This document shows positions 20,606 to 24,378 of a DNA stretch of 64,000 nt, piece by piece; within the stretch, counting starts at the first letter, position 1; every line of letters starts with the position of its first letter. The notes under the pieces are model-generated. The model had not been told where the DNA came from. It did not search any database and saw nothing but the letters and a program-made list of their open reading frames with translations. Source of the DNA: Zhongshania sp. (lineage in GTDB: Bacteria; Pseudomonadota; Gammaproteobacteria; Pseudomonadales; Spongiibacteraceae); NCBI GenBank assembly GCA_018066965.1, contig JAGPVP010000061.1, positions 43,416 through 107,415 of the forward strand. Direction: 5' to 3'. Position numbers and translations under genes: made by a program.

Positions 20606-20778
20606 GATCTACGTCTCCGAGTTTCAGCAATCTAATACCGTTTTTCATGAAGCTGGGGGCTTAGTCAATGCTAAAGTGACCCCACACAAAAACTGCGGCA
20701 TTATACACAACTAGTCGGTATGGGGGCCAATTATTGCCCCAAAATGCCCCTGCATTTGCAATTTTTCTCGGACATATT

Positions 20779-21453
20779 ATGGATTCCTCCCCCGCATTAA
20801 ATTACCGCCGTGCCAGCTATTTAAAAAGCTCGCCCAACCTGATGCACTGCCCAGACGACTCAGGCGCCGAGGTTGCGTTTGCCGGCCGCTCTAATGCGGG
20901 AAAATCCAGCGCAATCAATCGCTTGACCGAGAACAAAAAGCTCGCCAAAACCAGTAAAACGCCAGGGCGCACTCAGCTGTTAAATTTTTTCATTTTAGAT
21001 GATAGCGCCCGCCAACGACTTGTCGATCTGCCAGGCTATGGCTTTGCGAAAGTCCCCTTAGCGGTAAAAAACGAATGGCAGCGCAACCTCGAAGCCTATC
21101 TGCAAAAGCGGGAATCGCTGCGCGGCATGGTTTTAATGATGGATATTCGCCATCCTTTGACAGATTTTGATCGCCAAATGGTAAATTGGGCGACCAAAAG
21201 CGCCATGCCCATGCACATATTACTCACCAAGTCGGACAAGCTTAAACGCGGCCCCGCATCCGCAACCTTGCTGTTAGTGCGCAAGGAACTAGCGGAATAT
21301 GGCGATCTAATCAGTGTGCAATTATTTTCTGCCCACAACGGCGATGGCTTACAAGAACTGCGCAACCAGTTAGATCAGTGGCTAGACACACGGGCATTTG
21401 ACGAAGCGGAGAGCGCCACGTTAACCGAGCCAGAGCCGGATATTGACGCTTAA
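20779..21453 (+). CDS. engB: Ribosome biogenesis GTPase EngB/YsxC/YihA
   Basis: [17 protein letters not shown] (P-loop), [28 protein letters not shown]. Track ORF begins at 20734. Confidence 0.95.
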
Positions 21454-21467
21454 TAAACTGGAGATGC

Positions 21468-21575
21468 AAAAAGGCCCGGCGCGCTGAACTCACCGGGCAA
21501 TCCTACTCCTTAGGAGTCAGGGGGAGACAAGTCTCCTAACGCGGGGCTGTTACATACGTTTAAGAGCAACAGCCT
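21468..21575 (-). ncRNA. Candidate small RNA in the polA-engB gap (positional analogue of Spot 42 / ErsA)
   Basis: Minus-strand hairpins: GGCTGTT/AACAGCC (21545-21574), GGAGAC/GTCTCC (21523-21536), ACTCC/GGAGT (21505-21517), and terminator GCCCGG/CCGGGC (21474-21498) followed by CTTTTT. Confidence 0.55.
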
Positions 21576-21609
21576 TTTAAAAGTAGACGCAGATTTGCAA
21601 TTACGCAAA

Positions 21610-24378
21610 TCAATGCGCTTCATCCCAATTGTCACCGGTGCCAATTCCCACCTCCAGCGGTACCGATAAATCAGCAGCAGCCATCATTAACGCCACCACT
21701 TCTTTTGTGACTGTATCCAGCGCTGCCGGTGAAACTTCTAGCACGAGTTCATCGTGAACTTGCATGATCATTTTCGCATCAACACCGCTGTCACTCAGGT
21801 AGCGATCCACAGAAATCATCGCACGCTTGATAATATCCGCTGCGGTACCCTGCATCGGCGCGTTAATCGCCGTGCGCTCCGCGGCCTGACGACGCATGCC
21901 GTTGCTGGCATTTATTTCAGGCAGGTATAAACGGCGGCCAAACAAGGTTTCGACGTAGCCTTTTTCTGACGCCAAAACACGGGTTTCGTCCATATAGCGA
22001 AGCACACCAGGATAACGCTTAAAATACAGGTCGATATATTCCTGCGCCTCTTTGCGACCAATATGTAACTGACGAGCCAAACCAAATGCCGACATACCAT
22101 AAATTAAGCCAAAATTAATCGCTTTGGCGTTGCGGCGCTGGTCATCACTAACCTCATCAAGTGCGACCCCAAATACCTCTGCTGCGGTGGCCTTGTGGAT
22201 ATCTTCTCCAGCGGCAAATGCATCGATCAAGCCGCGATCTCCAGATAAATGCGCCATTATTCGCAGTTCAATCTGAGAGTAATCCGCCGCTAAAATCACA
22301 TAGCCTGGCGGCGCAACAAACGCCTGCCGAATTCGTCGCCCCTCGACGCTGCGAATCGGGATGTTCTGCAAATTGGGATCTGATGACGACAAGCGACCGG
22401 TCGCGGCCACCGCTTGATGGTAGGAAGTATGAATACGACCCGTCGCCGGATCGATAAGTAGTGGTAACTTGTCAGTGTACGTAGACTTCAACTTCGCCAT
22501 GCCACGATGCTCAAGGATCACCTTGGGCAGGGGATAGTCGTGCGCCAGTTCTGCCAAGACCTCTTCAGCCGTGGACGGCGCACCTTTTGGGGTTTTCTTA
22601 ATGACTGGAATATTGAGGCGCTCGAACAAAATTTCGCCTAATTGCTTTGGCGAGGCCAAATTGAACTCTCCCCCCGCCAACTCGTAAGCCTCTTTCTCTA
22701 AGGCCTGCATTTTCAAGCCTAGCTCATGGCTTTGCTTACCGAGCAGCTCGCGGCTAACGAACGCGCCATTTCGCTCAATACGTGACAACACCGGCACCAA
22801 GGGAAGTTCTATGTCGCGATATACCGACATTAGCGCCGAACTGGCATTAAGTTGTGGCGACATAGCCTGATGTAGACGCAGGGTGATATCCGCATCCTCA
22901 GCCGCATAGGGTCCGGCCTGCTCTAATGCAATCTGGTTAAATGTAAGCTGTTTAGCGCCTTTACCGGCGATATCTTCAAAATGAATCGTGCTGTGATCTA
23001 AATACTTCAGGGCTAAAGTATCCATATCGTGGCGACTGCCAACTGAATCCAAGACGTAGGATTCCAGCATAGTGTCTTCGGCAATACCGCGTAGTGTAAT
23101 ACCGTGATTTACGAGCACATTGGCGTCGTATTTTAAATTCTGACCCAACTTAAGCTTACTAGCGTCTTCAAGGAGTGGCTTTAACGCAGCCAGCACAGCG
23201 GTTTCGTTAAGCTGATCCGGCGCATCTAAATAATCATGCCCGAAGGGCAGATACGCTGCTTGACCGGCTTTTACTGCAAAAGACACCCCAACCACCCGCG
23301 CCTGCATGTAATTGAGGCTGGTGGTTTCGGTATCAAACGCGAACAGTGGGGCGGCATTTAGCTTTTGTAACCACGCATCAAGCTGCGCCTGAGTGAGTAT
23401 TAGCTGATAGTCTGCCTCGCCCGTAAAAGCCGACTCGGCCACTTCGATCACAGCGTCACTGTCGCCACCCAGCAAATCGGCCTGCACCAAGGATTCGGCA
23501 CGCTCGGTTCGGCTTAATTCCTGCACCCACGTTTTAAATTCAAATTCGGTAAATAAACTGAGCAAACGGGCGTTGTCTGGCTCAGACGGTAGCAAATCTG
23601 GCACGGATACGTCCAAGGGCACATCGCACTTGATCGTTGCCAAGGTATAAGACAGAAAGGCCTGCTCGCGGCTGTCTTCAAGCTTTTTGGCAATCCCCTT
23701 GGCACCGCGTATTGGTAAATCTGGCACTTTGTCGAGGTTTTGATATATATCTTCTAGGCTACCCAAGGCTTGCAACAAGGCGAGGGCGGTTTTCTCACCA
23801 ACACCTGCAACACCGGGAATATTGTCGACTTTGTCGCCCATCAGCGCCAAAAAGTCGATAATTAGCTCTGGAGGAATACCAAATTTTTCATTTACGCCTG
23901 CAATATCCATTACCGTATCGGTCATGGTGTTAACCAAGGTCACATGCTCATTCACAAGCTGCGCCATGTCTTTATCGCCGGTAGATACCAATACCGGACG
24001 CGCCTTGCCGGCCTGAGCCGCCAAGGTGCCTATCACGTCATCTGCCTCGACACCCTCAATCACTAATCGCGGCAAGCCCATTGCATCGACAATGGCATTT
24101 ATGGGCTCAACCTGACTACGCAAGTCATCCGGCATGGGTGGGCGCTGCGCCTTGTACTGGGGATACATATCATCGCGGAAGGTTTTGCCTTTGGCATCAA
24201 ATACCACCGCGATTGGGCTATCGGGGTAATCCTTCTGCAGACGGCGCAGCATATTAATCACGCCCTTTATCGCGCCAGTGGGCTGACCCGTTGAGGTATT
24301 CAGCGGCGGCAGAGCATGAAAAGCGCGATACAGATAGGAGGAACCGTCAACTAATACAAGAGGCTTTATGGCTGTCAT
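21610..24378 (-). CDS. polA: DNA polymerase I
   Basis: 5' nuclease domain ([16 protein letters not shown]), 3'-5' exo ([10 protein letters not shown]), polymerase motifs ([48 protein letters not shown]). Confidence 0.98.

Follow-up and report, generated by a model that had tools for sequence, protein, structure and literature searches.

Small RNA (sRNA) genes at the polA locus have so far been known singly, as Spot 42, ErsA, sX13 and the alpha-r7 RNAs. ErsA is located in the polA-engB intergenic region of Pseudomonas aeruginosa (PMC8575079). The C-rich motifs of sX13, an RNA of the Xanthomonadaceae, repress mRNAs that have G-rich motifs near the start codon, and the alpha-r7 sRNAs of alphaproteobacteria lie at the polA locus and form stem-loops with C-rich motifs (PMC3771888). 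The authors of the sX13 study asked in 2013 whether other bacteria have polA-locus sRNAs (PMC3771888). The RNA considered here adds one from Zhongshania, a genus for which a search of the literature found no sRNA work.

We analysed a stretch of 64,000 nt from a Zhongshania sp. genome, referred to below as the window. Within it, polA on the minus strand (ending at 21610) and engB on the plus strand (ending at 21453) converge on a gap of 156 bp; the engB ATG at 20779 lies inside a longer open frame starting at 20734. Orthologues of polA were found by protein search in 21 of 21 genomes of the family, and orthologues of engB in 18 of 18 congeners. A preliminary description had held that this space, put at about 155 bp, is not plain spacer but encodes four hairpins and a terminator on the minus strand, and all of these elements are found on the polA strand where it had placed them. 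The transcript length of about 105 nt that it proposed also holds, at approximately 107 nt from the putative start to the T-run. The genes are arranged and oriented as in E. coli polA-spf-yihA, and the window RNA sits at the polA-engB intergenic locus, as does ErsA (PMC8575079), in agreement with the two positional parallels drawn earlier. The features, in window coordinates, are as follows.

20779 to 21453, plus strand: engB/yihA (ribosome-biogenesis GTPase), the convergent neighbour, from the list of open reading frames
21610 to 24378, minus strand: polA (DNA polymerase I), an open reading frame of 922 aa, upstream neighbour of the sRNA and in the same direction
21580 to 21608, minus strand: putative promoter, TTGCGT (21608-21603), a 17-nt spacer and TACTTT (21585-21580), placed from conserved columns
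21468 to 21574, minus strand: predicted sRNA of about 107 nt, its start placed from the putative -10 and its end at the terminator T-run
21545 to 21574, minus strand: hairpin 1, GGCUGUU/AACAGCC, replaced by GCCGUC/GAUGGC in the second clade; three of six pairs are changed on both sides
21537 to 21543, minus strand: unpaired linker (C)CGCGUU(A), nearly invariant, a candidate accessible seed
21523 to 21536, minus strand: hairpin 2, GGAGAC-TT-GTCTCC, the 14-nt palindrome GGAGACUUGUCUCC with a CUUG loop, invariant in all aligned sequences
21502 to 21522, minus strand: hairpin 3, CCCUGACUCC(UAA)GGAGUAGG, with 100% of cells paired
21468 to 21498, minus strand: hairpin 4 and T-run, an intrinsic terminator, GCCCGGUG...CGCCGGGCCUUUUU (GCCCGG..CCGGGC, CTTTTT), with 97% of cells paired

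We consider it likely that the gap holds a real sRNA gene in the polA direction, encoding a noncoding RNA of about 107 nt that is transcribed independently, from a promoter of its own directly downstream of polA to a terminator of its own, that this RNA is the Zhongshania version of a polA-engB sRNA found in most genera of the order (ErsA of Pseudomonas is the one that has been studied), and that it most likely acts by base-pairing in trans. The promoter would start an independent noncoding RNA immediately downstream of polA, and the terminator would end it.

The fold of this region is considerably more stable than its composition would give. A 181-nt region folds at -63.5 kcal/mol, compared with -45.7 ± 4.1 kcal/mol for dinucleotide shuffles (z = -4.3), and none of 200 such shuffles of the region did as well. 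The ACTCC/GGAGT pairing described earlier belongs to a longer CCCTGACTCC..GGAGTAGG helix of hairpin 3, and the C-run of this hairpin continues that of hairpin 2, the two together forming UCUCCCCC. One earlier assignment has to be revised: the C-rich CCCCCTG had been taken as single-stranded, whereas the predicted fold assigns it jointly to hairpin 2 and hairpin 3 and leaves the linker CCGCGUU open instead. In the predicted fold of nine sequences, the mean unpaired probability of UCUCCCCC is 0.16-0.27 (that is, 73-84% paired), and that of the linker is 0.82-1.00. The longest open stretches predicted for the Zhongshania RNA are a 12-nt loop and an 8-nt linker, neither of them U-rich.

The same fold bears on the idea that the RNA is a protein-binding decoy, for example for CsrA/RsmA, instead of a base-pairing RNA. 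Three GGA motifs (UUAGGAG, AAGGAGU and UAGGAUU) occur within about 107 nt and are kept in all aligned sequences, which would favour a decoy, but they sit in stems and not in the apical loops in which CsrA prefers GGA, and we regard a decoy as highly improbable.

The RNA is present in 10 of 18 Zhongshania genomes, each time between polA and engB, and the recurrence in sister genomes that real hairpins should display is thus found. A covariance model (R1) built from nine sequences gives the ten Zhongshania genomes 100.8-133.4 bits and the next best sequence among 397 genomes of the order 28.2 bits; its calibration was shortened and its E-values are rough, and it is the difference between 101 and 28 bits that decides. 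A core pattern of 21 bases (GGAGACTTGTCTCCCCC and CTCC, separated by a gap of 2-5) matches six records in a search of 85,488 species genomes, all of them Zhongshania. The RNA in its present sequence is restricted to the polA-engB locus and to this genus. In the eight congeners without it (loci L043-L046, L048, L199 and L041, L042, L047), the polA-engB gap is 7-17 bp or the two genes are unlinked, and loss of the sRNA accompanies loss of the gap or of the polA/engB neighbourhood.

Between the window and G010, a member of clade B, 72 of 83 alignment columns of the RNA core are identical (87%), compared with 49% of polA third positions over the last 300 codons. This difference in sequence identity shows strong purifying selection on the Zhongshania RNA. 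The sequence of hairpin 1 differs between the clades, its pairing being kept (94% of cells paired) by compensatory changes. Hairpin 3 has a single varying pair, changed on one side, and hairpin 4 has one-sided changes, with T5-T6 retained in all ten genomes. Since hairpins 2 and 3 are nearly invariant, covariation neither supports nor contradicts their pairing.

This pattern of conservation is difficult to reconcile with hairpins that are merely the polA 3' UTR and terminator, or polA and engB terminators placed back to back. Hairpin 4 would indeed make a good terminator for polA read-through, and hairpin 1, read on the plus strand, precedes TTTT in the window in the manner of an engB terminator. 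A terminator, however, does not need some 80 nt of near-invariant upstream sequence (the 87% as against 49% given above), the conservation reaches upstream of hairpin 1 into the TTGC-N17-TA block, and eight congeners need no more than a 7-17 bp gap or have the two genes unlinked. The plus-strand T-run after hairpin 1 is not retained in other genomes, which rules out hairpin 1 as an engB terminator. We therefore think it unlikely that termination accounts for the hairpins.

There is hardly any chance, in our view, that the conserved sequence belongs to a dual-function RNA with a small protein as a further product. E. coli spf carries the annotated SpfP, and in the window an SD-like AAGGAG precedes a UUG codon by 5 nt, but the UUG frame is closed after five codons in clade B and, in clade A, continues into the terminator. 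No frame of at least 8 codons is common to the ten sequences, and a small ORF in the RNA is ruled out on this ground.

The block TTGC-N17-TAnnnT recurs in both clades of the ten genomes, with TACTTT in clade A and TAAAGT in clade B, and TTGC and GTCTA are conserved columns of the 10-genome alignment. It looks like a weak sigma-70 promoter, which would place the RNA start near 21574; a consensus scanner returned no site above its sigma-70 threshold in the window gap. We infer transcription, and the class of its promoter, from these sequences, and place the RNA end at the T-run, 21472-21468. An sRNA derived from the polA 3' UTR, with no promoter of its own, released by RNase from polA mRNA and then acting in trans, would fit the failure of the putative promoter in the consensus scan and its overlap with the polA stop region. 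We nonetheless find this origin quite unlikely, as Zhongshania conserves a block at the appropriate upstream distance and, in most of the order, the RNA at this locus clearly has its own promoter, of the sigma-E type.

The evidence for this last point comes from 104 further polA 3' regions of the order, 58 of which have a convergent engB, giving 49 gaps of at least 100 bp (two genomes of a sister genus included). A sigma-E/AlgU-type promoter pattern (GGAACTT, 14-17 nt, TCnnA and close variants) occurs in the polA direction, leading away from polA, in 33 of the 49 gaps, as against three on the opposite strand and a mean of 1.2 in dinucleotide-shuffled sequence; the genomes are related and the counts are not independent events, while the strand comparison controls for base composition. 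A terminator lies downstream in 32 of the 33, and 29 of these 32 RNA bodies contain UCUCC or UCCCC (dinucleotide shuffles: mean 15.2, maximum 23), with a mean unpaired probability of 0.80 for the motifs compared with 0.42 for all positions. TTCCCC is found in 22 of 44 bodies where 1.9 are expected, and its complement in one. None of the 20 sigma-E-type polA-engB loci scanned matches an Rfam family. We take this as evidence that a sigma-E-type C-rich sRNA is encoded in the majority of polA-engB gaps across the order to which Pseudomonas belongs, and ErsA is probably one case; in most of the order, a sigma-E/AlgU-type promoter would start an RNA with exposed C-rich loops. Six gaps from other genera (L070, L073, L119, L125, L144 and L154) each contain two sigma-E-type promoters approximately 190-210 bp apart, followed by similar sequence, a tandem duplication of the polA-locus sRNA.

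The Zhongshania RNA shares with this series a discrete structured RNA, a terminator, the polA direction and the polA-engB gap, and a motif of the UCUCC/UCCCC type is present in all ten sequences as UCUCCCCC. It departs from the series in its promoter. The sigma-E -35 (GGAACTT, and also GAACTT) is absent from all ten Zhongshania gaps, in which the -10-like GTCTA is still present. The window genome encodes an rpoE orthologue above the family cut-off and has a promoter-like site, GAACTT-N16-TCTAT, directly upstream of rpoE. Because the polA-engB gap carries the sigma-E form in the nearest other genus of the family (g2, G018-G020), the most economical reading of these sequences is that the Zhongshania ancestor lost the sigma-E -35; on the same reading, the eight RNA-less congeners lost the RNA. 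The preliminary description had proposed that this lineage carries its own sRNA, and conservation and the lack of an Rfam match support that proposal; it had not seen the order-wide sigma-E-type C-rich series or the departure of Zhongshania from it.

Whether the Zhongshania RNA and the others descend from one gene can be approached through what little sequence they share. Local alignment of the window RNA with that of L078, from another family, scores 31 over approximately 65 nt, with a reverse-complement maximum of 22. For L078 and L115, this best score is reached by 0-1 of 500 shuffles against a reverse-complement maximum of 22-24, in a comparison of about 49 gaps, and of five Zhongshania sequences one reaches no more than 24. 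In L061, L065, L066, L078, L117 and L132, GUCUCC follows one hairpin and precedes another, which is C-rich or a terminator. These resemblances are no more than suggestive of common descent.

The C-run that is exposed elsewhere in the order is, in the predicted Zhongshania fold, paired against GGAGAC to give the invariant palindrome GGAGACUUGUCUCC, a hairpin that would mask it. With the sigma-E -35 lost and the C-run covered by this hairpin, the model suggests that both control and seed accessibility were rewired in Zhongshania. A broader possibility, which we put forward tentatively and would not yet bet on, is that polA-engB is an old, selectively held sRNA seat, occupied by a single orthologous sRNA, sigma-E-driven and C-rich, most of whose sequence is rewritten between genera. 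In Zhongshania the copy would then be a derived one that changed promoter class and placed a self-masking palindrome over the seed (GUCUCC), so that a seed once constitutively exposed became gated. The locus offers a testable case of an sRNA gene that keeps its seat and promoter during sequence turnover, with one lineage in which the promoter was replaced.

As to function, the C-rich and linker segments would base-pair in trans with the ribosome-binding regions of mRNAs and so lower their translation. By analogy with sX13, pairing with G-rich ribosome sites would be the likeliest action (PMC3771888). A query for such sites (GGGGGAGA-N3..10-ATG) in four genomes returned a single cluster of orthologues, that of an OmpA/OprF-like gene adjacent to hda. 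In the window genome, AGGGGGAGA precedes the start of this gene and is perfectly complementary to UCUCCCCCU over 9 nt. Sigma-E sRNAs classically target outer-membrane proteins. However, congeners that lack the RNA (G001, G006, G011 and G014) have the AGGGGGAG site too, and it is weaker in the RNA-bearing clade B; for this reason we conclude that it does not co-vary with the sRNA. It may simply be a strong Shine-Dalgarno sequence, and we treat the gene as an unproven candidate target and do not count it as evidence. In most of the family, the OmpA/OprF-like gene near hda has this unusually G-rich ribosome site (L308-L328, approximately 15 nt upstream of the start codon), which is complementary to C-rich sRNAs in general.

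Two 3' UTRs came up in the same connection. Among ten genomes searched for the exact 10-nt complement AGGGGGAGAC, only one site recurs in three or more genomes, that in the nirBD 3' UTR, and it is ruled out as a target because the transcript there has the same sense as the sRNA. In five to six Zhongshania genomes, GUCUCCCCC stands there, just before an intrinsic terminator (L212:1430-1500, window genome contig C31:83691-83735, plus strand; also L211, L223, L227 and L228), and the nirBD 3' UTR is possibly a further C-rich RNA sharing this seed. The amtB stop codon is immediately followed by GUCUCCCCCGUUUGGUGAUU and then by a terminator (L237, ~1450-1552; window genome contig C30:19654-19704, minus strand); the motif is kept in eight Zhongshania genomes and also in congeners that lack the polA-locus RNA. 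Its presence in the latter rules out a link between the UCUCCCCC motif of the amtB 3' UTR and the sRNA; this UTR is a possible nitrogen-linked 3'-UTR sRNA.

Among named families, none in Rfam matches the window RNA at the gathering threshold. The Spot_42 model (RF00021) gives no match to it even at E up to 10 and recovers E. coli spf, as a positive control, at 122.8 bits, in keeping with the earlier remark that the RNA is not obviously Spot 42. Sub-threshold matches (a Betaproteobacteria toxic sRNA at 22.8 bits, where the cut-off is 50, anti-hemB and SorX) rest on the terminator and on CUCC stretches, and we therefore take them as chance.

The RNA nonetheless resembles Spot 42 of the Enterobacterales and Vibrionaceae in its place between polA and yihA/engB, its polA direction, its length (about 109 nt in Spot 42) and its terminal terminator; the two differ in that the window RNA does not match the Rfam model and no peptide is common to them. 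With ErsA it shares the polA-engB place. The ErsA promoter is of the sigma-22/AlgU class, and the sigma-E-like promoter of the order is of the same kind. ErsA, however, is 132 nt long and has four domains, including a 34-nt U-rich unstructured domain II between stem-loops, whereas the Zhongshania RNA has about 107 nt, is almost fully folded, and lacks both a long U-rich open region and a sigma-E -35. Like sX13, which is about 115 nt long, it lies downstream of polA, is highly structured and has C-rich motifs; sX13 presents CCCC or CCCCC in the apical loops of three stems, while the Zhongshania RNA has four hairpins with its C-run in paired strands. The alpha-r7 RNAs form a different class, compared in sequence with the Zhongshania RNA through the Rfam scan only. 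The order's other sigma-E-type polA-engB RNAs (e.g. L063, L066, L078 and L201) occupy the same gap in the same direction, are C-rich, and end in a CCCGGTG..CACCGGG terminator, with GUCUCC and then a C-rich hairpin in L066 and L078. These differ in their GGAACTT promoters and exposed C-rich loops, and their overall sequence is not reliably alignable to that of the Zhongshania RNA. The Zhongshania RNA has its place, direction and size class in common with Spot 42, ErsA and sX13, and probably its working mode as well.
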